This document shows positions 9,512 to 58,910 of a DNA stretch of 64,000 nucleotides, in pieces (the stretch's first letter is position 1; every line of letters starts with the position of its first letter). The position numbers were made by a program, and so were the translations under genes. Origin of the DNA: Daejeonella sp. (GTDB taxonomy: Bacteria; Bacteroidota; Bacteroidia; Sphingobacteriales; Sphingobacteriaceae). Location: the NCBI RefSeq assembly GCF_030695525.1, contig NZ_JAUYSS010000048.1, positions 17,296 through 81,295 of the forward strand. Reading direction: 5' to 3'. The notes below the pieces were generated by a model, which saw only the letters and a program-made list of their open reading frames with translations, was not told where the DNA came from and searched no databases.

Positions 9512-9546
9512 GGTAATTGGAATTGGAAGTTGAGAATTGGAAAATG
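9512..9546. repeat. degenerate 7-bp tandem array (GGAATTG type)
   Basis: Five units of seven bases ending mostly in TTG: GGTAATT, GGAATTG, GAAGTTG, AGAATTG, GAAAATG. It lies in the 442-base space between the response regulator and the rhodanese-like gene. The rest of that space is AT-rich without a gene. Confidence 0.5.
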
Positions 9547-9595
9547 ATTCATTAATAGTACATCAACTAAAAACAAAATTCCCCTTTTATCAGAA

Positions 9596-9632
9596 TCTGA
9601 AACAGGCAACCGATAACAGGCAACAGAATAAA
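9596..9632. repeat. degenerate 7-bp tandem array (CAGGCAA type)
   Basis: Units TCTGAAA, CAGGCAA, CCGATAA, CAGGCAA and CAGAATA in strict 7-base phase. It ends 5 bases from the stop codon of the rhodanese-like gene on the minus strand. It shares the TAACAG/CAACAG wording of the arrays at 31243 and 48927. Confidence 0.6.
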
Positions 9633-9637
9633 TAGAT

Positions 9638-10102
9638 TTATTTCGCTTCTAATGGATATCCCTTATCAATCCAGTTCTGCTTCAAATTAGTTGGCAGATT
9701 AAGCAGTTTGCCCTTAGTAAAGCCCATGGTTTTTAACATATTAACTGCAGGACGGATATTTGGGCATCTTTCAAATGGACAACATCCACAGTAAACGACC
9801 ACAAAGGTATTTTTAGGCAATTTTGATAAAGCACTCTTCAACTTCAGGAGATTCGCTTGTTCACTAACTCCACCAAGATTTATTGAACCTTTGATATTTT
9901 CAACTACTCCAATGTTAAATATTTTAGGTTGATTAGCTTTAGGATTGGCGATAATTGCTGCCAATTCGGAGGGGGCTATCAGGTCTTTTTGAGTCCAGTT
10001 ATCTTTTTTGTCTAATGCCTGATTGGCTTTGACTGTAGTTTGGGACAGACTAATGCTTGTACTTGATAGGGAAATAAGTATGATGTAAAGTAGGATTCTC
10101 AT
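9638..10102 (-). CDS. exported rhodanese-like protein
   Basis: 154 residues. A signal peptide covers residues 1-20 (MRILLYIILISLSSTSISLS). The mature part has the rhodanese fold pattern: IFNIG near the start, a GSINLGG segment, and a VVVYCGCCPFERCPNIRPA segment at the active-site loop, where rhodaneses carry one catalytic cysteine. Here there are three clustered cysteines plus a fourth in PNIRPA context. A KTMGFTKGKLLNLP strand closes the domain. The cysteine-rich loop suggests redox or metal chemistry rather than simple thiosulfate transfer. The adjacent minus-strand gene is a TlpA-like thioredoxin, so a shared periplasmic thiol role is reasonable. Confidence 0.75.
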   Translation of the reverse strand: MRILLYIILISLSSTSISLSQTTVKANQALDKKDNWTQKDLIAPSELAAIIANPKANQPKIFNIGVVENIKGSINLGGVSEQANLLKLKSALSKLPKNTFVVVYCGCCPFERCPNIRPAVNMLKTMGFTKGKLLNLPTNLKQNWIDKGYPLEAK

Positions 10103-10179
10103 GATTTTTCAGCTTATTATAATTGTAAAAATAGGTAATTCTTTACACCGGAGTTCTAAAAACTTAATTTAATGGTGTT

Positions 10180-10761
10180 TTATCGGCTAAGTTCATTTAA
10201 AAAGTTAAGCATTTCAGCATTATCATAATCTGCCATTCCGCTATGCTGAAAAACAATATTACCCTTTGGCCCTATGATCACTGTTGTGGGGAGGGTTCCG
10301 TTAAAAATATTTTCAGGAATGGCCGACTCACTCGAATAGACTTTTAGCTGGTAAGCGTGTTTTTTCATGTATTTGACAGAAGATGCAATTTTATTGTCAA
10401 CATCTACCATAATAAAATTGACTTTATCCTTATTCTTAATTTTTGAATATAATGAATTTATTGAAGGCATTTCAGCACGACAAGGTGGGCACCAGGTTGC
10501 CCAAAAATTTATAAAGTAAACTTCGCCTTTATTATCTGACAGTGTAAGCAGTTCTCCATCCTCTGATCTGAAAGTCAAATCAGCTGGAATTGTTTTACTG
10601 ATTTCAAGGCCTGAACTTGGAGCATCGGCATTATAAAGCCCGGTCTTCATAAGCCCCTGAATCAATAGTGTTCTCGCATCTGCACTAAAGAACATAATAC
10701 CCGCTAAAAGCACAAATAGAATATTGCTGATATTTGATTTGACAGATTTTAACAATTCCAT
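10180..10761 (-). CDS. TlpA/ResA-like thioredoxin-fold protein, membrane-anchored
   Basis: 193 residues when started at the ATG at 10759-10761. A longer frame begins 11 codons earlier, but a purine-rich AAAAGAGAAAC stretch before the inner ATG favours it. A hydrophobic anchor (about residues 8-28) is followed by a thioredoxin domain with FINFWATWCPPCRAEMP: the CPPC motif is the redox centre. The LPTTVIIGPKGNIVF segment supplies the cis-proline. Proteins of this family reduce disulfides in exported proteins or cytochrome c apoproteins. It is likely regulated by the region upstream, where a Crp-like site is visible. Confidence 0.9.
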   Translation of the reverse strand: MELLKSVKSNISNILFVLLAGIMFFSADARTLLIQGLMKTGLYNADAPSSGLEISKTIPADLTFRSEDGELLTLSDNKGEVYFINFWATWCPPCRAEMPSINSLYSKIKNKDKVNFIMVDVDNKIASSVKYMKKHAYQLKVYSSESAIPENIFNGTLPTTVIIGPKGNIVFQHSGMADYDNAEMLNFLNELSR

Positions 10762-10794
10762 TGTTTCTCTTTTATGATTTCTGCAAGTTAGCAT

Positions 10795-11100
10795 GCCTAG
10801 CGATGGGTATTTGTAACATTAGTCACAAACCTTTTAGGGAAATAGTTTGCTTTAATGAATATTGTGCAAAATAGTACACTTGTATGTCCTTTATTTTCTA
10901 CATTCTTTCTAAGGAAATTCATGCTAAGATCTTATGGTTTAAGTTATTAGCTTGAAATAAACTGAGATTATGCTCCTGCCTAATGCTTTTTAGAGCCATT
11001 TTAATAAGCAAAGCTCCCTATGTTATTAAGCTCAATTTGATTAAGAACATTTGGTCTGATTTTCGAGTATAAGTAATGAATCTGTTTTAATTATAGCAAA
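10795..11100. other. divergent intergenic space without a gene
   Basis: 306 AT-rich bases between the minus-strand thioredoxin gene and the plus-strand 97-residue gene. Apart from the Crp-like dyad I see no convincing gene, RNA or repeat. Confidence 0.5.
10812..10827. promoter_or_regulatory. Crp-like dyad TGTAA-N6-TCACA
   Basis: The spacing and arms match the Crp/Fnr-family palindrome TGTGA-N6-TCACA with one mismatch. It lies about 50 bases upstream of the TlpA-like gene start. The match is short, so it may be chance. Confidence 0.3.
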
Positions 11101-11394
11101 ATGGTAAAAAGTAAAATAGCCGCGATAAAGGACTGGATCAAAACCATGGGATTTGAATTAGTAAAATCACATAATTTGAGTGGCGAAGAAGTTAAGATTA
11201 ACTACTACAGTTTAGGTAATTTTGGTATTTATGAGGAAATATCAATTAAAAAATTGGCTGGAAGCACAAAGGAGCCTAAACTGCGATTTATTTCCTGGAA
11301 TCCCTGGGGAGTTGATTTTGAAGTAAGCTCCCTTAAAGATTTGATAGATGCTTATCAGGATTCTAAATCCTTCAGCCCCGAAATGCCGATTTAG
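11101..11394 (+). CDS. hypothetical protein, 97 residues
   Basis: A compact, soluble-looking protein with alternating short helices and strands, for example IAAIKDWIKTMGFELVK and a tryptophan-rich LRFISWNPWGVDFEV centre. There is no signal peptide, membrane helix or metal motif. It is convergent with the kinase gene that follows on the other strand, leaving a 30-base gap, and no partner gene is next to it. I do not recognise the family. A real protein is supported by even composition and a proper start and stop. Confidence 0.6.
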   Translation: MVKSKIAAIKDWIKTMGFELVKSHNLSGEEVKINYYSLGNFGIYEEISIKKLAGSTKEPKLRFISWNPWGVDFEVSSLKDLIDAYQDSKSFSPEMPI

Positions 11395-11424
11395 GTATTG
11401 AACTATCCGGTCATTGTACAAATT

Positions 11425-12273: not shown

Positions 12274-12275
12274 AA

Positions 12276-18941: not shown

Positions 18942-20747
18942 ATGAAATATTTGATCTCTTTAATTATTGTTGTCTTTATGTCCAGCTCTCTTCTTGCCCA
19001 AAATAAAATCGCCTTTGAGCTTTCTTTTACTGAGCCTCAGGCTCATTATGCAGAGGTGCAGATGAATATTTCCGGAGTTAAATCGGCTCATATTGATTTA
19101 AAAATGCCTGTTTGGACACCTGGATCTTATCTGATCAGGGAATTTTCCAAAAATGTGGAAGGATTTAAAGCATTTGACCAGGGAGGCAAAGAACTTCCAT
19201 TTGAAAAGATCAGTAAAAATACCTGGAGAATTAGTACTGCAAATTCTGGGAAAGTAAAAGTAAGTTATAGGATATATTCATTCGAAATATCTGTCAGGAC
19301 AAGTTTTGTAGACGAATCACATGCTTTTTTATCTCCAACTGGAATTTTTATGTACCCCGATGGCCAGCTAAATGAAGCATCCGAGATAACAATTAACCCT
19401 CATGAAACATGGTCTAAAATTTCAACTGGTCTTGAGAAAGTCAGTTCAAAGCCCAACACTTTTTATGCTCCGAACTTCGATGTGCTTTATGATTCGCCTT
19501 TTGAAGTTGGGAATCAGGATATTTTTGAATTTGTTGCTGAGGGAGTACAGCATGAAGTTGCGATGTATGGAGGAGGAAATTATGATAAAGAAATCCTTAA
19601 GCGGGATATGTCAAAGATCGTCATAGAGCAAACCAAAACTTTTGGCATTAATCCCAACAAGCGATATGTTTTTATAGTTCATAATTTTAATTCAGGTGGT
19701 GGCGGACTTGAGCACTTGAATTCAACTGTTTTAGGAGCCAGCCGCAATTCATACAATACAGAAGCAGGCCTTTTGAGGTTCCTTGGACTTGTTTCTCATG
19801 AGTATTTTCACCTGTGGAACGTAAAGCGTTTACGTCCGATAGCATTAGGGCCATTTAATTATGAACAGGAAAACTATTCCAGAAACCTATGGATTGCTGA
19901 AGGCTTCACTGCATATTATCAGGATATCTATACTAAGAGGGCTGGTTTACAAAGCCCTGAACGTTATCTGATGACCCTTGCTGCTTCAATTAGCTCTGTG
20001 GAAAATCAGCCCGGGAACCGGGTTGAGGCACTGAGCGATGCAAGTTTTGATGCCTGGATTAAGCAATATCGTCCAAATGAAAACTCTGCTAATTCTACTA
20101 TTTCATATTACAGTAAGGGCGCTTTGCTGGCTCTGATCATTGATCTTGAAATTATTCATTCAACTCAGTCCAAAGCAGGATTGGATGAGCTTATGAAGGC
20201 AATGTATGATGAGTATTATACAAAAAAGGACCGTGGGTTTACTGATGCCGAGTTCAAGTCAATGCTGGAAAAGGTGGCAGGAAAATCTTTTGATGATGTT
20301 TACAGGGATTATGTCAACGGGGTAAAGACCATAGATTACAATAAATATTTTGGGTATGCCGGTTTTACACTGATTGATGATGCGGCTAAAGGTAATGACG
20401 CATATCTGGGTGCAGTAACTGCGCTAAAAGATGGTAAGATTATAGTGACAAATGTAAGTCGGCAAAGCCCTGCCTGGAAGAGTGGCTTAAATGTAAACGA
20501 TGAGATAATAGCTATAGATGGATCTCGGATAAATAATGTATCAGATCCCAGACTATCAGAAGTTGAGAAATTTATTTCAAGTAAAAAGCCAGGTGAAAAA
20601 ATTGAAATCTCATTCAGTCGTGATGGTATTTTCCGAAAAACTGAGTTAACACTGGTCAGGAATCCGAATCATAGATTTAGAATCGCCTCTGTTCCAAATC
20701 TTACCCAAGAACAGCTTGCGGTAAGGAAGAGGTGGTTGAAACTTTGA
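18942..20747 (+). CDS. M61 family metallopeptidase with C-terminal PDZ domain
   Basis: 601 residues. A signal peptide (1-19, ending SLLAQ) leads into the M61 N-terminal domain (about 25-170) and a thermolysin-like catalytic domain: SHEYFHLWNVKRLRP contains the HExxH zinc motif near residue 285, and WIAEGFTAYYQ supplies the third zinc ligand glutamate. A PDZ domain lies at about 480-575 (SGLNVNDEIIAIDG). The family includes glycyl aminopeptidases of the periplasm. It is divergent from the efflux operon. The stop codon falls on the first unit of a 7-base tandem array. Confidence 0.93.
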   Translation: MKYLISLIIVVFMSSSLLAQNKIAFELSFTEPQAHYAEVQMNISGVKSAHIDLKMPVWTPGSYLIREFSKNVEGFKAFDQGGKELPFEKISKNTWRISTANSGKVKVSYRIYSFEISVRTSFVDESHAFLSPTGIFMYPDGQLNEASEITINPHETWSKISTGLEKVSSKPNTFYAPNFDVLYDSPFEVGNQDIFEFVAEGVQHEVAMYGGGNYDKEILKRDMSKIVIEQTKTFGINPNKRYVFIVHNFNSGGGGLEHLNSTVLGASRNSYNTEAGLLRFLGLVSHEYFHLWNVKRLRPIALGPFNYEQENYSRNLWIAEGFTAYYQDIYTKRAGLQSPERYLMTLAASISSVENQPGNRVEALSDASFDAWIKQYRPNENSANSTISYYSKGALLALIIDLEIIHSTQSKAGLDELMKAMYDEYYTKKDRGFTDAEFKSMLEKVAGKSFDDVYRDYVNGVKTIDYNKYFGYAGFTLIDDAAKGNDAYLGAVTALKDGKIIVTNVSRQSPAWKSGLNVNDEIIAIDGSRINNVSDPRLSEVEKFISSKKPGEKIEISFSRDGIFRKTELTLVRNPNHRFRIASVPNLTQEQLAVRKRWLKL

Positions 20748-20799
20748 CAATTGAGATATGAGATATGAGATATGAGAATTGAGATATGAGATTTGAGAA
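20744..20799. repeat. degenerate 7-bp tandem array (ATGAGAT type), eight units
   Basis: Exactly eight units: TTGACAA, TTGAGAT, ATGAGAT twice, ATGAGAA, TTGAGAT, ATGAGAT, TTGAGAA. The array begins at the stop codon of the M61 gene. Six units carry TGA, and because 7 is not a multiple of 3 these fall in all three frames. Confidence 0.85.
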
Positions 20800-26894: not shown

Positions 26895-29300
26895 ATGAAA
26901 CGAGTCATCAGAAAAGTAGCGGTATTGGGTTCGGGCATCATGGGTTCCCGTATTGCATGCCATTTTGCCAATGTTGGAGTTGAAGTGCTGCTGCTGGATA
27001 TCGTTCCAAAGGAACTGACCGCTGAGGAGCAGTCAAAAGGTGCTGATCTTAATTCTAAAGCAGTTAGAAATAGAATTGTAAATCTTGCACTTGAAAGTGC
27101 TTTAAAGGCCAATCCCTCCCCGGTTTACTCCAAAAAAGTTATAGGCAATATAAGTACAGGCAATTTCGATGACAATTTGAAAGATATTGCAGCCTGCGAT
27201 TGGGTGATTGAGGTTGTTGTTGAAAGGCTGGAAATTAAAAAGCTGATCTTTGATCAGGTTGAATTATACAGAACTCCGGGAACTCTGATTAGTTCAAATA
27301 CTTCCGGAATTCCGATTCATTTGATGGCTGAAGGACGTTCAGAAGATTTTCGATCCCATTTTTGCGGTACCCACTTCTTTAATCCACCGCGATACCTTCG
27401 TTTACTTGAAATCATCCCCACTACTCAGACAAAACCTGAGATTGTTGATTTCCTGATGTACTACGGTGATAAATTTCTTGGAAAAACCACTGTATTATGT
27501 AAAGATACCCCCGCCTTTATCGCAAATCGTGTTGGTGTTTATTCCATCATGGCACTCCTTCATCTGGTTGAGAAGATGGATCTCTCGGTTGAAGAGGTTG
27601 ATAAATATACCGGGCCCGCTTTGGGCAGACCTAAGTCGGCGACCTTCCGTACTACGGATGTTGTCGGACTGGACACAATGATCAATGTTGCGGGAGGCTT
27701 GTATAGCAATCTTCCTGAAGATAAAGCGCATGATCTGTTTGAACTCCCTGCATATGTCAAGAAAATGCAGGAGAATAAGTGGCTTGGGGATAAAACACAG
27801 CAGGGCTTTTATAAAAAGGTAAAAGGTGCTGATGGGAATTCAGAAATCCTTGCTCTTGATCTCAAAACATTAGAATATAAACCTCAGCAGAAAATAAAAT
27901 CTTCAACACTTGAGGCGACTAAACTAATCGAAAATTTACCTGAGCGGATGAAAGTATTCGCTAATGGGACTGATAAGGCCGGTGATTTCTTCCGCCATTC
28001 TTTTTTCGGGCTTTTTGAATATGTTTCAGACCGTATTCCTGAAATTTCTGATGAACTATACCGTATTGATGATGCAATGAGGGCTGGTTTTGGATGGGAA
28101 CTGGGTCCTTTTGAGGTATGGGATGCTGTCGGACTGAAAAACGCGCTCGAAGGAATGAAGAAATATGGTAATGAGGCATCAGCATGGGTTCATGAGATGG
28201 TTCAGGCCGGAAATGAGTCATTCTATAAGGTAGAAAACGGGGTTAAGAAGTATTACGATATTCCATCAAAGTCGTATAAAGCGGTTCCAGGAACCGAATC
28301 TTTCATTATTCTGGACAATATTCGTTCAACAAATACAGTTTGGAAAAATTCAGGAACTACAATTACCGATCTGGGCGATGGAATACTGAATCTTGAATTT
28401 CACACCAAAATGAACACCATTGGTGGTGAAGTGATTCAGGGATTAAATAAAGCGATTGATCTGGCTGAAAAAGATTACCGGGGTCTGGTTGTTGGGAATG
28501 ATGGAGCCAACTTTTCGGCGGGCGCAAATATCGGAATGATATTTATGGCTGCCGTTGAACAGGATTGGGATGAGATCAACATAGCCATTAAGATGTTTCA
28601 GAATACAATGATGCGGATGCGTTATTCAAGTATTCCGGTTGTGGCCGCTCCGCATAATCTTACCCTTGGAGGCGGCTGTGAATTGTGTCTTCATGCTGAT
28701 TTTGTTCAGGCTAATGCCGAAACCTATATGGGATTGGTTGAATTTGGCGTGGGATTGATTCCGGGAGGAGGAGGTTCAAAAGAATTTGCCCTTCGTTTAT
28801 CAGATGAGTTTAAAGAGGGTCAAATAGAGCAGGCAGCACTCCGGGAGCGTTTTTTAACTATCGGGCAGGCTAAAGTTTCGACCTCGGCTGTTGAAGCAGT
28901 TGAACTAGGCTACCTGCAAAAGGAGAAGTTCGGTATGAGCATGAACCGTAACAGATTAATCATTGACGCAAAAGAAAAAGCAATTGAACTTGCAGATGGA
29001 GGATATACAAAGCCGGTTCAACGCAAGGATATCAGGGTATTAGGTAAGCAGGGGATGGGTATTGTTTATGCAGGAGCAAATTCCATGTTCGCCGGGAACT
29101 TTATCTCAGAACACGATAAAAAGATATCCGAAAAATTGGGCTATGTGCTCTGCGGTGGTAATCTTTCAGCTCCAACATTAGTTTCTGAACAATATCTGCT
29201 TGACCTGGAGCGTGAAGTGTTCCTTTCGCTTTGCGCAGAGAAGAAAACACTTGAACGAATACAGAGTATACTGACTAAGGGTAAGCCGTTGAGGAATTAG
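26895..29300 (+). CDS. fadN: 3-hydroxyacyl-CoA dehydrogenase / enoyl-CoA hydratase (FadN type)
   Basis: 801 residues with the dehydrogenase first and hydratase second, the FadN domain order. The Rossmann loop reads VAVLGSGIMGSRIACHFA at the start, the catalytic region includes FCGTHFFNPPRYLRLLEI with the histidine-containing signature, and the hydratase part from about 500 shows ANFSAGANI and LTLGGGCELCLHADF, followed by GLVEFGVGLIPGGGG with the catalytic glutamate. It carries out two beta-oxidation steps. The stop codon lies inside the first unit of a 7-base array. The order MarR-fadN-fadA-fadE resembles the fadNAE operon of other bacteria. Confidence 0.94.
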   Translation: MKRVIRKVAVLGSGIMGSRIACHFANVGVEVLLLDIVPKELTAEEQSKGADLNSKAVRNRIVNLALESALKANPSPVYSKKVIGNISTGNFDDNLKDIAACDWVIEVVVERLEIKKLIFDQVELYRTPGTLISSNTSGIPIHLMAEGRSEDFRSHFCGTHFFNPPRYLRLLEIIPTTQTKPEIVDFLMYYGDKFLGKTTVLCKDTPAFIANRVGVYSIMALLHLVEKMDLSVEEVDKYTGPALGRPKSATFRTTDVVGLDTMINVAGGLYSNLPEDKAHDLFELPAYVKKMQENKWLGDKTQQGFYKKVKGADGNSEILALDLKTLEYKPQQKIKSSTLEATKLIENLPERMKVFANGTDKAGDFFRHSFFGLFEYVSDRIPEISDELYRIDDAMRAGFGWELGPFEVWDAVGLKNALEGMKKYGNEASAWVHEMVQAGNESFYKVENGVKKYYDIPSKSYKAVPGTESFIILDNIRSTNTVWKNSGTTITDLGDGILNLEFHTKMNTIGGEVIQGLNKAIDLAEKDYRGLVVGNDGANFSAGANIGMIFMAAVEQDWDEINIAIKMFQNTMMRMRYSSIPVVAAPHNLTLGGGCELCLHADFVQANAETYMGLVEFGVGLIPGGGGSKEFALRLSDEFKEGQIEQAALRERFLTIGQAKVSTSAVEAVELGYLQKEKFGMSMNRNRLIIDAKEKAIELADGGYTKPVQRKDIRVLGKQGMGIVYAGANSMFAGNFISEHDKKISEKLGYVLCGGNLSAPTLVSEQYLLDLEREVFLSLCAEKKTLERIQSILTKGKPLRN

Positions 29301-29336
29301 TATTGAGTATTGAGTATTGAGTATTGAGTATTGAGA
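29295..29336. repeat. degenerate 7-bp tandem array (ATTGAGT type), six units
   Basis: Six 7-base units: AATTAGT, ATTGAGT four times, ATTGAGA. The fadN stop codon TAG lies inside the first unit. It is the inverse complement of the array at 29720-29754, so the two frame the S23-like gene. Confidence 0.88.
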
Positions 29337-29349
29337 TATCAAGGCGGAA

Positions 29350-29709
29350 ATGCATAATATTAAAGATCTGAAAATATGGAATAAGAGTATAGACCTGGCA
29401 ATAAAGGTTTATGATGTTTCCGCAAAATTTCCGGCAGATGAGCGTTATGGTTTGATATCTCAAATTCGCCGGTGTGCAGTATCTATACCATCCAATATTT
29501 CGGAGGGAGCCGGAAGAAACTCCAATAAAGAATTTTTGCAATTCTTGGGTATTGCGAATGGATCATCATATGAACTGCAAACTCAATTGGTGATAACAGA
29601 ACGTCTTGGATTTGTTGATACTAAAATATGTAATGAATTACTCGAATGCATAGATGAACTTCAAAAAATGAATTTTAATCTTCAAAAATCAATAAGACTT
29701 AAATTGTAG
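29350..29709 (+). CDS. four-helix-bundle (S23/Avd-like) protein
   Basis: 119 residues, all helical. Family wording is strong: IKDLKIWNKSIDLAIKVYD at the start, FPADERYGLISQIRRCAVSIPSNISEGAGR in the middle, and ELQTQLVITERLGF near the end. This family is known from intervening sequences of 23S rRNA genes and as the Avd accessory protein of diversity-generating retroelements, but here there is neither rRNA nor reverse transcriptase. It sits between fadN and fadA, framed by inverted 7-base arrays, so it looks like an insertion in the operon. Its function in this setting is unknown. Confidence 0.9.
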   Translation: MHNIKDLKIWNKSIDLAIKVYDVSAKFPADERYGLISQIRRCAVSIPSNISEGAGRNSNKEFLQFLGIANGSSYELQTQLVITERLGFVDTKICNELLECIDELQKMNFNLQKSIRLKL

Positions 29710-29719: not shown

Positions 29720-29754
29720 TCTCAATACTCAATACTCTCTACTCAATACTATAG
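29720..29754. repeat. degenerate 7-bp tandem array (ACTCAAT type), five units
   Basis: Units TCTCAAT, ACTCAAT, ACTCTCT, ACTCAAT, ACTATAG. It is the reverse complement of the array at 29295 and ends 2 bases before the fadA start codon. Translating it gives the spurious N-terminal extension of the longer fadA frame. Confidence 0.85.
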
Positions 29755-30937: not shown

Positions 30938-30986
30938 ATGGAGAGTGGAGTGTGGAGAGTGGAGAATTTAGAATTGAGAATGGAAT
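30938..30986. repeat. degenerate 7-bp tandem array (GTGGAGA type), seven units
   Basis: Units ATGGAGA, GTGGAGT, GTGGAGA twice, ATTTAGA, ATTGAGA, ATGGAAT. It begins 3 bases after the fadA stop codon. Confidence 0.8.
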
Positions 30987-31026
30987 AGGGATAATGGATA
31001 CTACTAGTATTTAAATTTTAGCAGGA

Positions 31027-31153
31027 TGTCATCCTGAGTGTAACGAAGGAACTTAGCGAAAGGGAATGAGGAGTTTGATATTGAGAATAGAGGTCAATAT
31101 GTTCTAAGGTCCCTCCTGCGTCGGCCTTGCCTGCCGGCAGGCAGGGATGACAG
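31027..31153. repeat. palindromic intergenic element ending in GTCAT/ATGAC
   Basis: Outer arms GTCATCCTGAG and CAGGGATGAC frame about 100 bases, and the inner GCCTGCCGGCAGGC is a 14-base palindrome (31129-31142). Elements of this GTCATCCTGAG wording are common dispersed repeats in many bacterial genomes. It lies in the 401-base space between fadA and fadE. Confidence 0.65.
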
Positions 31154-31242
31154 CCAGAATGGAATTGAAAGTGGAGAAAGTTGATAGGCAGCAAAAACAG
31201 CTAAATAATTACTACTAATTTTAAAATGTAGGTATAAATTAC

Positions 31243-31284
31243 CGGCAGACAACAGACAGCAGACAACACATAACTGATAACAGA
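31243..31284. repeat. degenerate 7-bp tandem array (CAACAGA type), six units
   Basis: Units CGGCAGA, CAACAGA, CAGCAGA, CAACACA, TAACTGA, TAACAGA. It lies 52 bases before the fadE start. The wording matches the arrays at 9596 and 48927. Confidence 0.75.
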
Positions 31285-31336: not shown

Positions 31337-33127
31337 ATGAGCACAGCAAAAACCAAATCAATCAAAGGCGGAGAATTTATTATCCGCGAAACGGCATGTG
31401 AGGATATTTTTATCCCGGAGGAGTTTGATGAAGAGCAGTTGATGATCAAAAAAACCTGTGAGGATTTTTTGGTGGCAGAAGTTTTTCCTAATCTCGACAG
31501 GATCGATAACCAGGAAGAAGGATTAATGGTAAACCTGATGGATAAGGCAGGTGAACTGGGTTTATTGGCTGTTTCTATCCCTGAAGAGTATGGGGGCTTT
31601 GGAAAAAACTTCAATACCTCCATGCTGGTGGCAGATTCAGTAGGGGCAGGATGTTCATTCGCTGTTGCACTTTCGGCACATACTGGAATCGGTACCTTGC
31701 CTATACTTTATTATGGTAATAAAGAGCAAAAGGATAAATACATCCCCAAACTGGCTACCGGCGAGTGGAAAGCATCTTATTGCCTTACCGAACCCAATTC
31801 AGGTTCTGATGCTAATTCAGGAAGAACAAAAGCGGTACTGAATGCAGAGGGTACTCACTACCTGATCACTGGTCAGAAAATGTGGATCACCAATGGTGGT
31901 TTTGCAGATATATTTATTGTTTTTGCAAAAATCGATGACGATAAAAACCTATCTGCATTTATTGTTGAAAAGGATTTTGGCGGAATTACGATGAACCCTG
32001 AGGAACATAAACTGGGTATTAAAGGATCTTCAACAAGACAGGTGTTCTTTAACGACTGTCCGGTTCCTGTCGAAAATCTGCTTTCAGAGCGTGAAAATGG
32101 CTTTAAAATAGCCGTAAATATTCTGAATATCGGCCGGATTAAACTTGGTGTTGCGGCTATCGGTTCTTCACGTATGGTCTTGAACCAGGCGATAAATTAT
32201 TCAAATGAACGTATACAGTTCAATTTGCCAATTTCAAAGTTCGGTGCTATTCGCTATAAACTTGCCGAAATGGCTACCCGTAATTTTGCTCTTGAAAGTG
32301 CATCTTACCGTGCCGGACAGAATATCGATGATGCATATGATGCTTTGGTAGCAGAAGGTATGGACCCTTCACAGGCTAAATTGAAATCTACAGAGCAATT
32401 CGCTGTGGAATGTGCAATTATCAAGGTTTGGGGATCTGAAGTTTTGGATTATATCGTAGACGAAGGTCTGCAAATCTATGGTGGTATGGGTTATTCTGCA
32501 GAAGCACCCATGGAGCGCGCTTATCGCGATAGCAGGATCAACAGGATATTCGAGGGTACTAATGAGATCAACAGGATGCTTATCCTTGACATGCTCCTGA
32601 AACGTGCCATGAAGGGTGAACTCGATCTGATGACTCCGGCACAGGCCGTTGCGGCTGAATTAATGTCAATCCCTGACTTTGGGGAGGAAGATAATTCACT
32701 CTTCGCGGCAGAAAAGCGACTTTTAGCTAACCTGAAAAAGGCCGGTTTGATGATAGCTGGTGCCGCAGTTCAGAAATTGATGATGACCCTGTCAAAAGAG
32801 CAGGAGATTCTGATGAATATTGCAGACATCATCGGTTATATCTATGTAGCCGAATCAACTATTCTTAGAGTTGAAAAACTGGTGAAATTAAGAGGTGAAG
32901 AAGCATGTTCAGGACAGCTTGATATGATGCGGATCTACCTCTATCAGACTGTTGATAAGGTCTCTGTAGCAGGTAAAGAAGCACTTTATTCATTCGCTGA
33001 AGGTGATGAACTAAGAATGATGCTGGTTGGGCTGAGACGTTTTACAAAATCAGAGCCTTTCAATATTAAAGAAACCAGACAACGTGTCGCTAAGCAATTG
33101 ATTGAAGCAAATAAGTATTGTTATTAG
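31337..33127 (+). CDS. fadE: acyl-CoA dehydrogenase, FadE type
   Basis: 596 residues, matching the ~594-residue FadE of the fadNAE system rather than the ~380-residue short enzymes. FAD-binding wording CLTEPNSGSDANSGRTKA and WITNGGFADIFIVFAK is followed by the core IYGGMGYSAEAPMERAYRDS and RIFEGTNEINR, the last containing the catalytic glutamate. A C-terminal helical domain of about 170 residues is extra. It introduces the first double bond of beta-oxidation. Two repeats and a 401-base gap separate it from fadA, so it may have its own promoter. Confidence 0.94.
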   Translation: MSTAKTKSIKGGEFIIRETACEDIFIPEEFDEEQLMIKKTCEDFLVAEVFPNLDRIDNQEEGLMVNLMDKAGELGLLAVSIPEEYGGFGKNFNTSMLVADSVGAGCSFAVALSAHTGIGTLPILYYGNKEQKDKYIPKLATGEWKASYCLTEPNSGSDANSGRTKAVLNAEGTHYLITGQKMWITNGGFADIFIVFAKIDDDKNLSAFIVEKDFGGITMNPEEHKLGIKGSSTRQVFFNDCPVPVENLLSERENGFKIAVNILNIGRIKLGVAAIGSSRMVLNQAINYSNERIQFNLPISKFGAIRYKLAEMATRNFALESASYRAGQNIDDAYDALVAEGMDPSQAKLKSTEQFAVECAIIKVWGSEVLDYIVDEGLQIYGGMGYSAEAPMERAYRDSRINRIFEGTNEINRMLILDMLLKRAMKGELDLMTPAQAVAAELMSIPDFGEEDNSLFAAEKRLLANLKKAGLMIAGAAVQKLMMTLSKEQEILMNIADIIGYIYVAESTILRVEKLVKLRGEEACSGQLDMMRIYLYQTVDKVSVAGKEALYSFAEGDELRMMLVGLRRFTKSEPFNIKETRQRVAKQLIEANKYCY

Positions 33128-44437: not shown

Positions 44438-44472
44438 TTGGAGTTATAAGTTGTAAGTTATACGTTGTAAGT
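44438..44472. repeat. degenerate 7-bp tandem array (TGTAAGT type), five units
   Basis: Units TTGGAGT, TATAAGT, TGTAAGT, TATACGT, TGTAAGT. It begins 3 bases after the sucB stop and ends directly against the terminator. The inverse-complement wording recurs at 55138. Confidence 0.82.
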
Positions 44473-47113: not shown

Positions 47114-47168
47114 AATTAATTAGGATTAATTAGGATTAATAGGATGAAAGGATTAATAGGATTAGGAT
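47114..47168. repeat. ATTAGGATTAAT repeat cluster
   Basis: Six or so copies of ATTAATTAGG/ATTAATAGG-like words with 6-10 base spacing. Inverse-complement clusters follow at 47237-47283 and 47335-47403. Confidence 0.6.
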
Positions 47169-47287: not shown

Positions 47288-47404
47288 TTAGCGTGATTCA
47301 TACTGCATAATAGATTTCGTTATAGCAGCTTTCCAAATCCTAAAATCCTTTCATCCTATCATCCTATCATCCTATTAATCCTAATAATCCTAATAATCCT
47401 AATA
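47288..47404. repeat. GATTCATA...AATCCTAAT repeat, second copy
   Basis: Same order as the first copy: GATTCATA, a GCAGC word, then eight or nine ATCCTAT/ATCCTAA words. The run ends just before the lpdA promoter. Confidence 0.5.
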
Positions 47405-47440: not shown

Positions 47441-48844
47441 ATGCAATTCGACGTAATAGTTATAGGTAGTGGTCCGGGTGGTTATGTTGCCGCCATTCGT
47501 TGTTCCCAGCTGGGTTTAAAAACAGCAGTTGTTGAGAAATATAGTACTTATGGTGGCACCTGCCTAAATGTGGGTTGTATTCCATCAAAGGCTTTGTTAG
47601 ATTCTTCAGAACACTATCATAATGCCCTTCATACATTTAAGGAACATGGTATCAATCTGAAGGACCTTAAGCCCGACCTGAAGCAAATGGTTAAGCGTAA
47701 GAATGAGGTGGTAGCACATACTACCGGTGGCATTGCATTTCTTTTTAAGAAAAATAAGATCACTGCCTATCAGGGTATGGGATCAATGGTTGATAAAAAT
47801 ACAGTAAAGGTTAGTAAGGCTGATGGAACATCAGAAACCCTGACAGGTAAAAATGTGATCATCGCAACAGGCTCAAAGCCAACTCAGCTTCCTTTCCTTA
47901 AAACTGATGGTAAACGGATCATTACTTCAACAGAGGCATTGAATTTAACCGAAATTCCAAAACACCTCATCCTGATCGGTGGTGGCGTTATCGGACTCGA
48001 GCTGGGTTCTGTATATGCCCGTCTGGGATCGAAAGTTACGGTTGTAGAATTTATGGATTCTATTATCGGCACAATGGACAAGAGTCTGGGTAAAGAGCTG
48101 CACAAAGTTTTGGCTAAACAGGGAATGGAATTCTTATTGAGCCATAAAGTTACCGGAGCAAGTGTAAAAGGAAACAAGGTAACTGTGACGGCGGATAATC
48201 CGAAAGGTGAAAAAGTTACCCTGGAAGGTGATTATTGCCTCGTAGCTGTAGGTCGTGTAGCTTATACTGAGAACCTGGGTCTTGAAAACATTGGAATCAC
48301 TTTGGATGAGCGTGGTAAAAAGATTCCGGTTAATGAGCAGCTTGAAACATCCGTTCCGGGAGTTTATGCGATTGGTGACGTGATCAAAGGTGCTATGCTG
48401 GCTCATAAGGCCGAAGATGAAGGAACTTTTGTGGCCGAAGTTATAGCCGGACAAAAACCTCATATCAATTATAATTTAATTCCAGGAGTAGTTTATACCT
48501 GGCCTGAAGTGGCAAGTGTAGGCTATACCGAAGAGCAGTTGAAAGAAAGCGGCACTAAATACAAGAGTGGGTCCTTCCCCTTCAAAGCCAGCGGAAGAGC
48601 CCGTGCGAGTAATGATTCAGATGGATTTGTGAAAGTGCTTGCAGATGAAGCTACTGACGAAATTTTGGGAGTACACATGATCGGGCCAAGAGCTGCTGAT
48701 ATGATTGCAGAAGCAGTTGTGGCGATGGAATTCAGGGCATCTGCAGAAGATATTGCAAGAATATCTCACGCACATCCAACCTATACTGAGGCATTTAAGG
48801 AGGCAAGTATGGCGGCTACGGAGAATAGGGCAATACATATTTGA
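47441..48844 (+). CDS. lpdA: dihydrolipoyl dehydrogenase (E3)
   Basis: 467 residues. FAD-binding IVIGSGPGGYVAAIRC at the start, the redox disulfide in GGTCLNVGCIPSKALLDSS, the NAD-binding LILIGGGVIGLELGSVYARLG, and the C-terminal HAHPTYTEAFKEAS with the active-site histidine-glutamate pair. It re-oxidises the lipoyl group of 2-oxoglutarate dehydrogenase and related complexes. Its gene is separate from sucAB but nearby. A 7-base array begins at its stop codon. Confidence 0.97.
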   Translation: MQFDVIVIGSGPGGYVAAIRCSQLGLKTAVVEKYSTYGGTCLNVGCIPSKALLDSSEHYHNALHTFKEHGINLKDLKPDLKQMVKRKNEVVAHTTGGIAFLFKKNKITAYQGMGSMVDKNTVKVSKADGTSETLTGKNVIIATGSKPTQLPFLKTDGKRIITSTEALNLTEIPKHLILIGGGVIGLELGSVYARLGSKVTVVEFMDSIIGTMDKSLGKELHKVLAKQGMEFLLSHKVTGASVKGNKVTVTADNPKGEKVTLEGDYCLVAVGRVAYTENLGLENIGITLDERGKKIPVNEQLETSVPGVYAIGDVIKGAMLAHKAEDEGTFVAEVIAGQKPHINYNLIPGVVYTWPEVASVGYTEEQLKESGTKYKSGSFPFKASGRARASNDSDGFVKVLADEATDEILGVHMIGPRAADMIAEAVVAMEFRASAEDIARISHAHPTYTEAFKEASMAATENRAIHI

Positions 48845-48898
48845 GCTGAAAGCTCAAAGCTCAAAGCAGAAAGCTCAAAGCTCAAAGCCAAAAGCCCA
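48843..48898. repeat. degenerate 7-bp tandem array (AAGCTCA type), eight units
   Basis: Units GAGCTGA, AAGCTCA twice, AAGCAGA, AAGCTCA twice, AAGCCAA, AAGCCCA. It starts at the lpdA stop codon. Each AAGCTCA gives TGA on the opposite strand. Confidence 0.87.
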
Positions 48899-48926
48899 AT
48901 GAAGAGATCTTTTTCTTAATTAGTTA

Positions 48927-48961
48927 TTACTGACAACAGGTAACTGACAACTGACAACAGA
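48927..48961. repeat. degenerate 7-bp tandem array (CAACTGA type), five units
   Basis: Units TTACTGA, CAACAGG, TAACTGA, CAACTGA, CAACAGA. It ends one base before the crtZ start codon. The wording matches the arrays at 9596 and 31243. Confidence 0.85.
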
Positions 48962-55102: not shown

Positions 55103-55135
55103 AAAAAGGGCACCCCATTCATCTGGAGCACCCTT
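55103..55135 (-). terminator. rho-independent terminator of the PfkB gene
   Basis: On the minus strand, AAGGGTGCTCC pairs with GGGGTGCCCTT (with G-U pairs) around an 8-base loop and is followed by a T-tract. It lies about 30 bases after the PfkB stop. Confidence 0.8.
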
Positions 55136-55137
55136 AA

Positions 55138-55165
55138 AACTTATAACCTACAACTTATAACTTAC
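55138..55165. repeat. degenerate 7-bp tandem array (AACTTAT type), four units
   Basis: Units AACTTAT, AACCTAC, AACTTAT, AACTTAC, in 7-base phase. On the minus strand they follow the PfkB stop codon and contain TAA (ATAAGTT). The inverse wording occurs at 44438 after sucB. The terminator is next. Confidence 0.75.
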
Positions 55166-56085
55166 TACTTCTCAATAACAAAACTACTCAACCTCACAAA
55201 TTGCTGTACTCTCGCCTTAATTTCTTCCTGACTTAAGTTTTTGATACGCTCGATACCAAATTTCTCAACGCAGAAGGAGGCTAGCGCAGAACCGAAGATA
55301 ATTGCATTCTTCATATTATTGAAATTGATCGTTCCTACCTGGGCAAGATACCCGATGAAACCACCGGCAAAGGTATCACCGGCACCGGTTGGATCGAATA
55401 CATCGGCAAGCGGTAAAGCAGGGGCAGAGAAGATCAGATCTTCATGGAATAATAAAGCACCATGTTCACCTTTTTTAATGATCAGGTATTTCGGTCCCAT
55501 GGCCAGAATTTTATTTGCGGCTTTAACCAATGAATACTCACCCGACAATTGTCTTGCTTCAGCATCGTTAATGGTTAAAACATCCACATTTTTGATTACC
55601 GCTAAAAGATCTTCCAGGGCGATATCCATCCAGAAGTTCATCGTATCCAAAACAATCAGTGCTGGACGCTTATTTAAACGGTTGATCACAGTCTGCTGAA
55701 CCTGCGGAGTAAGGTTACCCAGCATCAGGAACTGACAGTCCTGATAGCTTTCCGGAATAATCGGATCAAAATCACCAAGAACATTCAGTTCAGTGATTAA
55801 AGTATCGCGACTATTCATGTCATTATGATATTTTCCCGACCAGAAAAAGGATTTTTCTCCCTTTTTTATCTGAAGTCCTTCGGTATCGATGCCATGATCA
55901 TTGAAATTTTGGATATCTTCCTGGTGAAAGTCTTCACCAACCACACCAACGATTTTTACATTCTTATAGAAATAGGATGCGGCTAAACTTGCGTAGGTGG
56001 CTGCTCCGCCCACTATTTTATCTGTTTTCCCGAAAGGAGTTTCAATTGCATCGAAGGCAACGGAACCAATAATAACTAGACTCAT
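55165..56085 (-). CDS. PfkB-family carbohydrate or nucleoside kinase
   Basis: 306 residues of the ribokinase fold. The N-terminal LVIIGSVAFDAIETPFGKTDKIVGGAATYASLAA segment is the substrate lid region, and the C-terminal DPTGAGDTFAGGFIGYL motif holds the catalytic aspartate and anion hole. Length and order match the PfkB family, which phosphorylates sugars or nucleosides. Similar enzymes in Bacteroidota are annotated as adenosine or sugar kinases; the substrate cannot be read from sequence. It is a single-gene unit with its own terminator. Confidence 0.9.
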   Translation of the reverse strand: MSLVIIGSVAFDAIETPFGKTDKIVGGAATYASLAASYFYKNVKIVGVVGEDFHQEDIQNFNDHGIDTEGLQIKKGEKSFFWSGKYHNDMNSRDTLITELNVLGDFDPIIPESYQDCQFLMLGNLTPQVQQTVINRLNKRPALIVLDTMNFWMDIALEDLLAVIKNVDVLTINDAEARQLSGEYSLVKAANKILAMGPKYLIIKKGEHGALLFHEDLIFSAPALPLADVFDPTGAGDTFAGGFIGYLAQVGTINFNNMKNAIIFGSALASFCVEKFGIERIKNLSQEEIKARVQQFVRLSSFVIEK

Positions 56086-56265: not shown

Positions 56266-56285
56266 CTAGTTGAATGACTAGTAAT

Positions 56286-56316: not shown

Positions 56317-56398
56317 TTTTAGAGATTTTTCTTCTTCAATAGAATTCCTTCCTTTTTAAGCTATTTGGTTTGAGCATAGTTTGAGCAAAAACCACAGC

Positions 56399-56580: not shown

Positions 56581-56603
56581 CAGGCAAAGGTTAGCCTTGA
56601 TTA

Positions 56604-56807
56604 TTAAATCAAAAAAACGGGTATAAGCACAGCTAAAAGAGGAAACAAGATTACGAATAACATAAGGTACCAGGACGAGCGATGAGCGAAATTCATAGTT
56701 TGCCCATATCCGAACTGTTTGTCCACAAATAATGAAGGGTCATCAGGATTATAGTAAATCAATCCCCAGCATCTATAGTGTCTTCGATCTTTTGCAGGTC
56801 TTTTCAT
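56604..56807 (-). CDS. small membrane protein with DUF5808-like segment
   Basis: 67 residues. The segment GLIYYNPDDPSLFVDKQFGYGQTMNFAH matches the conserved core of the DUF5808 proteins (YNPDDPRLF and related), followed by one hydrophobic helix (about 47-66). These are short membrane-associated proteins of unknown function. The start is at 56805-56807. It lies next to the integrase remnant and could be part of the same inserted region. Confidence 0.7.
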   Translation of the reverse strand: MKRPAKDRRHYRCWGLIYYNPDDPSLFVDKQFGYGQTMNFAHRSSWYLMLFVILFPLLAVLIPVFLI

Positions 56808-56861
56808 AATTAAAATTACAAATATTTATCATTACAAGCCCTCAGCCTACAAAGGATCTTG

Positions 56862-56943
56862 CTAAGACGCAGAGACGCGAAATATACCTAATTGAATGAT
56901 TATATAATCTGTATCCCTTGCGTCTTGGCGTCTCTGCGAGAGT
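56862..56943. repeat. inverted 8-bp-period repeat
   Basis: CTAAGACG-CAGAGACG-CG on the left and TTGCGTCT-TGGCGTCT-CTGCGAGAG on the right are inverse complements, each with period 8. The unit is unlike the 7-bp arrays in period but similar in style. It lies 34 bases upstream of the DUF5808 start. Confidence 0.55.
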
Positions 56944-57061
56944 AAAAATTTTGAGAAGTTCTAGAGGAGAGAATTAATAAACCTCTATAACATGTCATGG
57001 GTAAAAAAAGGACACCAAATCACATTGAATATGTTCTAAGCTCAGGCAGTTAATAATAAGT

Positions 57062-57418
57062 TTACCGATGTTTTGGATCAAGATGTTCTGATAACTCCCC
57101 TTTAAGCCTATGGTACATTTTTAATTTATATTCAACAGATAGTTCTTCCCGGTGCGATTTAGTAGTCTGCGGTGCATCCGAATCTTTCGTGTCCACGACT
57201 TCTAAGAGTATCCTGTCTCCAATTTTCAAATCTTCCTGTACCCATTTCATACTTTCACTACTTGCGGAATTTAAACCGCTTACGGAAATGCTGATTGTGT
57301 CCGGTTGATTATCCAGGCCCTCAATCAAATTAATGATTGTACTCAGTACTCCTTTTCCGGATTTCAGTCCGGCTGTGCAGACTTTAATATCGTTTAAATG
57401 TATTTCAAATGCTTTCAT
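57062..57418 (-). CDS. hypothetical protein, 118 residues
   Basis: A compact soluble protein. The first half has strands such as AFEIHLNDIKVCTAGLKSGKG and DTISISVSGLNSASSE, the middle has a DRILLEVVDTKD segment, and the end is helical and basic (VEYKLKMYHRLKGELSEHLD). No signal peptide or membrane helix. It lies alone, with 71 bases to the next minus-strand gene. I do not recognise the family. Confidence 0.55.
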   Translation of the reverse strand: MKAFEIHLNDIKVCTAGLKSGKGVLSTIINLIEGLDNQPDTISISVSGLNSASSESMKWVQEDLKIGDRILLEVVDTKDSDAPQTTKSHREELSVEYKLKMYHRLKGELSEHLDPKHR

Positions 57419-57489
57419 AAATATGTTTTTTGACCTTCATTGCTTGAGAAAAGATACAGAGAGTAAATCAGTTGATTAAATTATATCAA

Positions 57490-58509
57490 TTAGTAAAGTT
57501 TCCCCTCCTTGTCAAATTCCCTTTTTCGAATTAAGGTTCCTGACTCATTGTATTGAAGATCTGTCGTTCCCCGATCATGATAATTTACACTAAACTTTAC
57601 TTTTCCATTGTCGTGGAAATAGGTGCTAGAGATTCTTTCGCCTTTTTTATAAACAGATTCGCTGTACAGATAACTGAAAGTTCTGCTGGCTATATTACTC
57701 TGGTATTCCTGAAATTTTTGCATGATCCCTTTTTTTGAGCGGATACTCACAAACATAGGCGCATTCGGATACATATAAGATATCATCGAGTCGACAGGAA
57801 CTCCCATGCGATAATTAGCTTTTGTCTGGATTTGCCCCTTTTTATCATACCAAATACTTTTGCCATTGAGACTATCCTTCTTATATTCTATACGTCCATA
57901 GATCGTACCATCCGGATAATAATACATTGAAATGCCATGCTTTTTATTATTCTTGTAGGATACAGTACGTTCGATTTGACCGTTGGCGTAATATATAACA
58001 GGCTTCTCAGTATCTAATACCTGAGCTAATGGAGCATTGCCTAAGTTCTCATTAACCCAAATAAGCCTTTTTGTCGCCGAAGCATATTGCAAGTTTCTAA
58101 ACCCATCCTTATTACGGTAAAGCATGCTGTACCCACACATGCCGATACCCACTGTGCCCTCAGATCCTGCATTCGCAATTATCAGCCACTCCTGACCGGC
58201 AGAAACGTCAATATCACAGGATGTATGGACTGTAGTGGACTTTGGAGGTGCACCACTTACTGTAATTTTTTGTAAGGAAGTGCCTTTTAAAAGGACGATT
58301 TCATCAACCAATACTTCATATTGAATTGGGAAATTTGGATCCCCACTTCTATAGTTCGCTTCATTAAAGGGCAATTGCTCCTTTATCCTGACAAGAGCTA
58401 CATAAGCCTGATTTCTCAGACCATCTGCAGTTAAGGGAGATGTCGCGCAGGAACAAGCGAAGGAAGATAATGGGCCAAAAACGAAGAGTAATATCAGTAG
58501 TCGTTTCAT
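57490..58509 (-). CDS. exported protein with TIMP-like N-terminus and YwqK/MORN repeats
   Basis: 339 residues from the ATG at 58507-58509; an upstream in-frame start would place 20 extra residues before a good signal peptide. The signal (1-18) is followed directly by cysteines (CSCATSP), as in TIMP/netrin-like domains, with a SCDIDVSAGQEWLIIA strand and a MCGYSML near 140-150. From about 180 the sequence has YwqK/MORN-like repeats (GQIERTVSYKNNKKHGISMYY, KDSLNGKSIWYDKKGQIQT, HDNGKVKFSVNYHDRGTTDL). The combination is unusual. Function unknown. Confidence 0.82.
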   Translation of the reverse strand: MKRLLILLFVFGPLSSFACSCATSPLTADGLRNQAYVALVRIKEQLPFNEANYRSGDPNFPIQYEVLVDEIVLLKGTSLQKITVSGAPPKSTTVHTSCDIDVSAGQEWLIIANAGSEGTVGIGMCGYSMLYRNKDGFRNLQYASATKRLIWVNENLGNAPLAQVLDTEKPVIYYANGQIERTVSYKNNKKHGISMYYYPDGTIYGRIEYKKDSLNGKSIWYDKKGQIQTKANYRMGVPVDSMISYMYPNAPMFVSIRSKKGIMQKFQEYQSNIASRTFSYLYSESVYKKGERISSTYFHDNGKVKFSVNYHDRGTTDLQYNESGTLIRKREFDKEGKLY

Positions 58510-58602
58510 AATAAGTGTAACACTAAGATACTTATAAAGGGTGCATATTCCATTATGGGGGCCAATCAATGGAAACGTCTTAGAGAGAGTTTAGTATTTT
58601 AA

Positions 58603-58812
58603 CTAACCTTTGTTCAGATCAATATAATTTCTGCTGCTTTCTTTGTTCTTATCCTCCAGGCAAAGCAAAATAATCAGGGAAATCATAGGGATCAGAAAAG
58701 AAATCCAAAACCAGAATTTTGGCTTGCGGCCCATCTGTTTAGCCAGCACGGCTGCTGCAATTTGGGGCAGGAAAACAATTGGCGCGAGGACAAGGATAAT
58801 TAATTCGGGCAT
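58603..58812 (-). CDS. small membrane protein, 69 residues
   Basis: Two hydrophobic helices (about 5-25 and 34-53) joined by a basic loop (KQMGRKPKFW), ending in a charged tail. It resembles the many tiny two-helix membrane proteins of Bacteroidota that are unnamed. It stands alone, 93 bases from the preceding gene on the same strand. No family is recognised. Confidence 0.55.
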   Translation of the reverse strand: MPELIILVLAPIVFLPQIAAAVLAKQMGRKPKFWFWISFLIPMISLIILLCLEDKNKESSRNYIDLNKG

Positions 58813-58868
58813 CTTTAATTAATTCAGGGCAAATATACCAAATAGACCCTGAATTCAGCGATAGGTGG

Positions 58869-58910
58869 ATTAAGTTTAAAGCTTAAAGCCGAAAGCTCAA
58901 AGCCTGTAGC
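58869..58910. repeat. degenerate 7-bp tandem array (AAAGC type), six units
   Basis: Units TTAAAGC twice, CGAAAGC, TCAAAGC, CTGTAGC, in 7-base phase, preceded by ATTAAGT. The first bases overlap the start of the ~60-bp element cluster. Wording is close to the array at 48843. Confidence 0.72.

Follow-up and report, generated by a model that had tools for sequence, protein, structure and literature searches.

Many period-7 tandem arrays of a Daejeonella genome share words, strand polarity and stop-codon placement with the arms of S23-gene elements

A stretch of 64,000 nucleotides (nt) from Daejeonella sp. (contig NZ_JAUYSS010000048.1 of assembly GCF_030695525.1, positions 17,296 to 81,295; called the window here) carries intergenic tandem arrays with a period of 7, two of which enclose a gene of the S23/IVP four-helix-bundle family between fadN and fadA. 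Our results suggest that many arrays of this genome agree with the arms of such S23 elements in word, strand polarity and position at stop codons, the others likely being gene-less or one-armed derivatives, a reading to which we give a probability of slightly under 60%. In such elements, the S23 gene occupies a gap within an operon and is bracketed by complementary arms with a period of 7, or of 8 in two elements of this genome. Each element's arms match one another, although their word varies from element to element and from one sister species to another at a given site; S23 lineage and arm word go together.

The S23 gene of the window (29350..29709; plus strand, as all features below unless stated otherwise) encodes 119 residues and matches TIGR02436 (E 2.6e-36), PF05635 (E 1.8e-38) and the structure of XCC0516, PDB 2gsc (E 4.4e-21). 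Its 5' arm, (TATTGAG)5 at 29299..29339, begins at the stop codon of fadN (29298-29300) and was identified with Tandem Repeats Finder (TRF) and by direct reading; its 3' arm, (CTCAATA)4 at 29720..29750, supported by TRF and the RNA fold, ends 6 nt before the ATG of fadA (29757). The two are reverse complements and form the best array pair of the window. The fadN product shows 95% identity to its counterpart in a Sphingobacteriales metagenome-assembled genome (MAG), and 94 and 93% identity to those in two Daejeonella MAGs.

In related genomes, arm pairs are found in many species with differing words, for example AGTATCG/CGATACT in locus L048 and AACAAAG/CTTTGTT in locus L042. Of 77 fadN-fadA spacers, 15 fall short of 100 nt; in the other 62, the own-arm score averaged 18.7 against 9.5 for cross-species swaps, and in 67 fadA-fadE spacers 11.5 against 7.8; in both cases none of 2000 permutations reached the observed value. 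The fadN-site arms of the window and of locus L024 differ by exactly one heptad, as would be expected if the polymerase slipped most easily at 7 nt, arrays survived neutrally in tolerant spacers and S23 genes settled nearby; a heptamer excess is indeed known in many genomes (Mrazek 2007, as summarised in PMC4679880). Some fadN-fadA spacers of Hymenobacter (L073, L094, L096, L099, L100) hold at the same place a non-heptad palindrome, TGTCATGCTGACGAAGGAAGCATC or close to it.

The predicted RNA fold of the fadN-fadA spacer of the window pairs both arms (z -5.38; none of 100 shuffles was as stable). This would suit an mRNA hairpin selected as a stability, RNase III or termination signal, in which compensatory changes maintain the pairing and S23 serves as a binding regulator, and RNase III does cut the stems of intervening sequences (IVS) in 23S rRNA (PMC4990558). 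Such selection predicts an excess of sense-strand G.U among the mismatches of arm pairs, which is absent (sense G.U against the antisense kind: 50 vs 64, 32 vs 35 and 11 vs 24), so that the complementarity is more likely maintained at the DNA level; moreover, most arrays lack a partner. RNA-stem selection was rejected on the missing G.U excess, and we regard the hairpin explanation as quite improbable compared with arms that belong to S23 elements.

A profile search of Bacteroidota loci for S23 genes gave 107 matches, 94 of which were used after short flanks and duplicates had been omitted; the profile was built from the proteins of a preliminary flank scan without minus-strand loci, whose counts are not used. 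Of these 94 distinct S23 genes, 58 were surrounded by complementary flanks (score of at least 18); among 469 size-matched genes from the same loci (duplicates kept among these controls) the number was 12, a difference that neutral slippage does not predict. The flank score lay above all 50 shuffles for 63 of the 94 genes, and the median score was 22 for own arm pairs and 8 for swapped pairs. The 5' arms begin at the upstream stop codon (median -1 nt; 49/58 within 10 nt), and the 3' arms end before the downstream ATG (median 6 nt; 42/56 within 0-20 nt), the latter being the first in-frame ATG after the arm, which favours short distances; these rows have an arm score of at least 16 and a neighbour no further than 400 nt away on the stop side or 200 nt on the start side. 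Neighbours on both sides are co-directional for 80/91 S23 genes vs 168/280 controls, and those at the operon sites look metabolic. The dinucleotide AG is enriched at period 7 in the arms (145 vs 75.7 expected), which would suit a TRAP-like NAG code as a putative binding signal.

The Daejeonella genome (4.2 Mb in 73 contigs) has 8 S23 matches, 7 of them over the curated cut-off. Further elements occupy the metH-metF, argC-argD and scoA-scoB gaps and a position upstream of a transaldolase-like gene, these names coming from a reading of the translated neighbours. Two of this genome's elements, L015 and L016, have period 8; together with a period-9 hairpin upstream of lpdA (see below), they indicate that period 7 is not absolute. 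Between the arms of the S23 loci L010, L012, L014, L015 and L016 there is no other open frame of at least 80 residues, and no transposase of a known family. Terminal inverted repeats of the kind that define transposons and miniature inverted-repeat transposable elements are present at S23 elements and absent from most lone arrays.

Across up to 20 genomes of the genus, the scoA-scoB, argC-argD and metH-metF gaps occur in three states: empty, occupied by an S23 element, or filled by a spacer that has no S23. Empty sites measure 1 and 2 nt at scoA-scoB (genomes G005 and G013) and 5 nt at metH-metF (G015), so that occupied and empty forms of the same site exist. S23 is present in 7/18 scoA-scoB, 14/18 argC-argD and 13/20 metH-metF rows (a single genome contributes two of the metF rows); of the 56 rows, 4 were unreadable because the upstream gene was lacking and 1 because of an overlap. 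At argC-argD, genome G000 combines S23 with TTATACG-type arms; in G019 and G011 the arms are of AAAGC type, with S23 proteins of only 48 and 47% identity to it. The metH-metF site has GTTGGTTAG arms with one S23 group and GTTATCAG-type arms with another (54-58%). At several sites the unit changes between sister species while period and position persist, the outcome of a comparison that had been proposed in advance.

The association of word and protein also extends across sites. In 2417 different-site pairs, arm similarity grew with S23 identity (rho 0.271; 0/500 within-site permutations as high), from a mean of 0.196 below 40% identity to 0.505 at 70-80% (12 pairs); 79 of 111 S23 genes entered this comparison, those with an arm score below 15 or short flanks being omitted. 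The argC-argD gap of the S23-less genome G015 (L319) contains a piece matching 24 residues of the S23 tail at 75% identity (E 2e-6); between it and argD lies ACTTAAAACTTAC-type sequence. This apparent relic, a single case, supports decay of S23 elements.

A first-pass annotation of the window had described a genome-wide layer of period-7 arrays tied to stop codons, and this layer proved real in 864 kb of sampled DNA (the window plus 40 stretches), against shuffles and by stop distances. Ten of the twelve arrays that it named are firm by TRF and direct reading (20745-20798, 29299-29335, 29721-29750, 30939-30981, 31246-31284, 44442-44472, 48844-48892/48899, 48929-48958, 55133-55170 and 58872-58904). 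The other two are weak: the array at 9512 has period 6 with 16% indels, and TRF gives no report of that at 9596. A strict count (at least 16/18 matches) over 464 kb, that is, the window plus 20 stretches, found 17 intergenic arrays and 1 coding array of period 7, against a mean of 0.0 in 10 dinucleotide shuffles of the intergenic pieces, and the signal thereby passed the shuffle comparison proposed for it. The other periods from 4 to 24 gave 0-5 arrays each in the same count, the harmonics 14 and 21 excepted. At 15/18 matches or more, the 864 kb hold 68 intergenic and 9 coding arrays, against 1 in one shuffle of the whole. Autocorrelation of all intergenic sequence gives only a small peak at 7/14/21 (0.298 vs 0.283 shuffled). 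The heptanucleotide repeats of cyanobacteria are named STRR; as in these and in the LSSR class, intergenic tandem 7-mers exceed chance here. In relatives, contigs C32 and C42 of G014 and C79 of G019 start within long heptad arrays, and the arrays therefore probably break assemblies.

The arrays are placed with respect to stop codons. Of 62 stop-facing edges, 23 lie within 3 nt of a stop (4.0 expected) and 28 within 5 nt (5.9 expected), expectations being obtained by sliding each array at random within its own spacer and stop-overlapping arrays counting as distance 0. Start-facing edges show no excess (3/70 within 5 nt, 4.9 expected), with start codons called crudely and a few arrays falling within over-long open frames. 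Anchoring to start codons, which had also been claimed, is seen at S23-bearing elements, where the first in-frame ATG was taken, and not in the general count. The arrays at 29720 and 48927, said to end 1-2 nt before a start codon, are near one, at 6 nt (the fadA ATG) and 4 nt (48963), respectively.

Strand polarity follows the same layout. By spacer halves, G-type arrays after stops and C-type arrays before starts account for 54 of 64 untied cases (2 ties omitted; spacers below 25 nt skipped in the position and polarity counts), which slippage again does not predict. Among arrays nearest a stop (within 25 nt), G exceeds C on the gene strand in 30/34, and among those nearest a start, C exceeds G in 10/14. 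The type of arrangement known from Xanthomonas and Nostoc, in which the coding strand carries heptamers close to stops and the opposite strand carries them close to starts, is thus found here in its stop proximity and polarity, start proximity being seen at S23 elements only. Stop codons in all three frames, suggested earlier as a possible role of the arrays, occur in 34/58 5' arms and 14/58 3' arms of S23 elements; this is a weaker signal than arm pairing, and the idea is disfavoured as their main meaning because it leaves the complementarity of the arms, the enclosed S23 gene and the link between array and S23 numbers unexplained. A role as a ruler is not favoured either.

The arrays that do not flank S23 genes resemble S23 arms in their words. 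Of 67 such arrays, 38 reach a match of at least 0.6 to an S23-arm word, compared with 6 when reversed, 3 as reverse complements and a mean of 1 over ten scrambles of the unit; the mean match is 0.629 (scrambled 0.447, reversed 0.461, reverse-complemented 0.336). These shared words and the relic in G015 lead us to interpret lone arrays as S23-element derivatives that lack the gene or one arm. When all spacers were searched for inverse pairs at score 14, convergent gaps gave 10/54 vs 0.4 by swapping, probably terminators, co-directional gaps 15/274 vs 1.7 expected, and divergent gaps 4/84 vs 2.8. Some spacers are composite, with 5' and 3' arrays of different words (30939-31284 and 48844-48958 of the window; L105, L122, L128 and L131), and may reflect nested elements or the replacement of one arm.

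Array abundance also follows S23 copy number. S23 genes occur in 75 of 99 sampled Bacteroidota genomes, and across the 99 the counts of TNAG-type four-unit heptads track S23 copy number (rho 0.54, uncorrected for GC content), with none of 1000 within-family permutations as strong. At least 5 hits were found in 4/24 genomes without S23, 12/29 with 1-3 S23 genes and 35/46 with at least 4; the pattern yields overlapping hits, long arrays being counted several times, and its backward control also catches other heptads and is not clean. Array counts per 120 kb were 5 in G073, 3 in G069, 1 in G070, 10 in G134, 6 in G042 and 2 in G096, and no array was found in 560 kb from four S23-less Bacteroidota genomes. 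Within the genus, the S23-less genomes G013 and G015 yielded no array in 114 kb, with 0 and 9 pattern hits, respectively. Neutral slippage predicts neither the shared words nor this copy-number link; the predominance of lone arrays lacking S23 remnants agrees with it. The S23 link and the matching of arms weigh largely against slippage as the sole cause, and we consider it unlikely.

Several observations weigh against deriving the arrays from S23 elements. The majority of arrays stand alone or opposite a different word: a strong partner (score of at least 18 within 450 nt) exists for only 7/69 arrays of this genome, so that pairing of every array was rejected, and the arrays' own flanks beat the flanks of all 25 foreign arrays in 6 cases, where 2.7 were expected. 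S23 remnants at E 1e-3 were found in 0/47 array-bearing spacers and 1/332 other spacers; lone arrays are thus not simply decayed S23-bearing copies, and the idea of decayed S23 genes beside them was rejected. The 68 arrays in 864 kb scale to more than 300 per genome, against 8 S23 matches. No arrays were found in 100-120 kb each of G104, which has 11 S23 genes, and of G098 and G083 (1 each); G048 and G133 have no S23 yet 78 and 113 pattern hits; and the copy-number correlation is weak when restricted to the genus (rho 0.44, p 0.05). The survey counts are not independent, as one fad operon supplies many of the S23 loci as orthologues. The largest permuted rho of the word-protein comparison was 0.258, which makes the effect beyond site structure modest, and 67/79 named-site S23 genes are closest to a same-site relative, pointing to largely vertical inheritance. 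No target-site duplication was seen by eye in occupied/empty pairs, whose spacers are highly diverged, and neither an excision product nor transposition was seen.

If many arrays do stem from S23 elements, a mechanism can be proposed. The S23 element would be mobile, related to the rRNA intervening sequence, and tolerated nowhere but in gaps between cistrons. Slippage in steps of 7 nt may lengthen and shorten its arms, whose complementarity would persist through one arm serving as DNA template for the other, for example by template switching. The S23 protein may be specific for its own word and also serve gene-less copies in trans.

Among the closest known systems is the 23S rRNA IVS of Leptospira and Coxiella, which likewise places an S23-family gene (S23p/IVP) within long-stem complementary ends and has been called a selfish element (PMC4990558). 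The elements described here share with it the S23-family gene and complementary ends forming one stem, but do not interrupt rRNA genes; they lie between protein genes of operons, at fadN-fadA, argC-argD, metH-metF, scoA-scoB and similar gaps. Their arms are tandem 7-mers (8-mers in two) with a word for each element, and gene-less and one-armed forms are likely abundant. S23 genes also occur in rRNA inserts of candidate phyla radiation bacteria, and S23/four-helix-bundle proteins are described as functionally uncharacterised (PMC11270868). The Avd protein of diversity-generating retroelements resembles PF05635 proteins in sequence and structure (PMC10053308), and XCC0516, the protein of PDB 2gsc, comes from Xanthomonas campestris (title cited in PMC3936711).

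Heptamer tandem repeats have been a puzzle since a 1990 report on a cyanobacterium (Mazel, as cited in PMC4692102). The LSSR5-11 (Mrazek 2007) and the cyanobacterial heptanucleotide repeats (Mazel 1990), both as cited in PMC4679880 and PMC4692102, are intergenic heptanucleotide tandems as here but were treated as simple repeats, whereas some of those described here are paired arms around a gene family. In Xanthomonas and Nostoc, heptamers are found close to stops if on the coding strand and close to starts if on the non-coding strand; most lie between aligned genes, and inverted pairs number 70 and 75 in two xanthomonads and are few in Nostoc (PMC4692102). Period, stop/start strand pattern and inverted pairs are shared with our arrays; that article centres on G-rich words and G-quadruplexes, whereas our arrays use many words within a genome, contain few G-runs and are linked to S23. 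Direct TAACTGA repeats have been reported from Beggiatoaceae, Cyanobacteria and five Bacteroidetes, mostly just before starts in the Beggiatoaceae genome, with translational regulation proposed (PMC4679880); they share the polarity of the C-type 3' arms here (CAACTGA/TAACTGA). The text of PMC4679880 has no match to 'four helix' or '23S', and in open-licence PMC literature we found no paper connecting S23 to heptamers. The first-pass view that no standard feature type fits was thus partly wrong, heptamer arrays of matching pattern having been published (PMC4692102, PMC4679880): the placement rules for Xanthomonas, Nostoc and Beggiatoaceae are already in print.

From these reports comes a further explanation, that the arrays are G-quadruplex or protein-binding regulatory repeats, as proposed for the GGGAATC-type words of Xanthomonas and Nostoc and for TAACTGA of Beggiatoaceae. 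The same placement and strand rule (PMC4692102) and the start-proximal repeats (PMC4679880) speak for it. GG at period 7 in the arms lies below expectation (9 vs 29.3), and GGG occurs in only 6/58 S23 arms; the G-tracts that quadruplexes need are thus missing as a general feature of Bacteroidota, and the quadruplex was rejected. A word that changes between sister species at the same gene also fits poorly with a single regulator that has a conserved site, and we hold regulatory repeats of either kind to be very improbable as a substitute for S23-element arms.

Beyond Bacteroidota, S23 matches on plasmids comprise 44 records, mostly cyanobacterial, while a search of phage records for S23 gave no match. 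Fourteen of the 44 records were read, all cyanobacterial (H1-H7, H9-H13, H22 and H28); the rest, including four from Riemerella, were left out. Complementary flanks scoring above all 200 shuffles were found for 8 of these 14 S23 genes vs 1 of 61 size-matched genes from four of the plasmids, and a period-7 array lay in a flank of 12/14 vs 9/61. The words include the G-rich heptamers TAGGGAG and ACAGGGA. S23 genes in cas loci have been reported (PMC3936711), and we found them in cyanobacterial cas operons (cas6-S23-cas4, cas10-S23-cmr3) in loci L344, L345 and L352. Heptad arrays flank them in L344 and L345; in L344, AAAGCTA/AAAGCCA arrays stand in both flanks in the same orientation, not inverted. 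These S23 genes are likely passengers rather than cas genes, and their presence would then have a plain reason, in that they may be tolerated intercistronic inserts and not defence genes.

A wider proposal, which we put forward tentatively as possible but short of probable, is that S23/IVP proteins drive a pan-bacterial hairpin family, each lineage reading its own 7-base word, seeding or rewriting arms between cistrons and scattering gene-less arms; cyanobacterial heptamers, the TAACTGA of Beggiatoaceae and the GGGAATC of xanthomonads would be its footprints, and the S23 genes of cas operons its passengers. If single runs derive from S23 inserts, similar cyanobacterial repeats, and possibly those of Xanthomonas, would have a common origin with them. 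Joining heptamers and S23 leads to one question, whether the S23 protein binds, copies or moves its arm word.

The remaining arrays of the window vary in their resemblance to S23 arms. The 5'-type array (TGAGATA)7 at 20745..20798 (TRF) lies at the stop of the 18942-20747 gene, with a word match of 0.75 and a partner score of 10 (none found); at this site, relatives have other heptad units (L022, L023) or none (L025, L026). After the fadA stop, a 5'-type array (30939..30981; TRF) changes from GGAGAGT to GAGAATT and matches the S23 arm of L014 at 0.66; the far end of this spacer has a different word, the arm pair scoring just 12. That end is the 3'-type array CAACAGA/TAACAGA (31246..31284), upstream of an acyl-CoA dehydrogenase start at 31337, with a match of 0.64 to a metF-site S23 arm. 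A stretch with GATGTCATCCTGAGTGTA after the fadA array, at about 31000-31060, is common to L023 and L025 and perhaps represents a second repeat family.

The 5'-type array AAGTTGT/AAGTTAT (44442..44472) begins 6 nt after the sucB stop and matches an S23 arm in G003 (L148) at 0.84. Upstream of lpdA, a gene-less hairpin consists of a period-9 arm, ATTAATAGG (47119..47162; TRF), and its complement, AATCCTATC (47353..47394; TRF), 46 nt before the lpdA start at 47441; its arm score is 32 (maximum of 200 shuffles 24), its DNA fold has z -4.93, and it resembles S23 elements in shape only. The array AAGCTCA (48844..48899; TRF) overlaps the lpdA stop; the argD-site arms of L304 are similar by eye, and the best S23-arm score is only 0.34, obtained on the reverse complement, which was scored as C exceeds G. 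The 3'-type array CAACTGA (48929..48958; TRF), ending before the 48963 start, has by eye the same word as the metF-site 3' arms of L322, L328 and L330.

On the minus strand, a 5'-type array (55133..55170; AAGTTAT/AAGTTGT in gene sense) lies at the stop of the kinase gene 55165-56085 and matches an argD-site S23 arm at 0.55. Two arrays are without assigned strand: AAGCTTA/AAAGCCG (58872..58904), 302 nt from the nearest called gene, with a match of 0.68 to the argD-site S23 arm of L304, and the weak CAGGCAA/CGATAAC (9597..9625), with a match of 0.59. Repeats of 11 and 22 bases (TTCGGCAGTAC and GTCCCGAATCT) at 63328-63510 lie inside an open frame of 98 residues (63264-63560).

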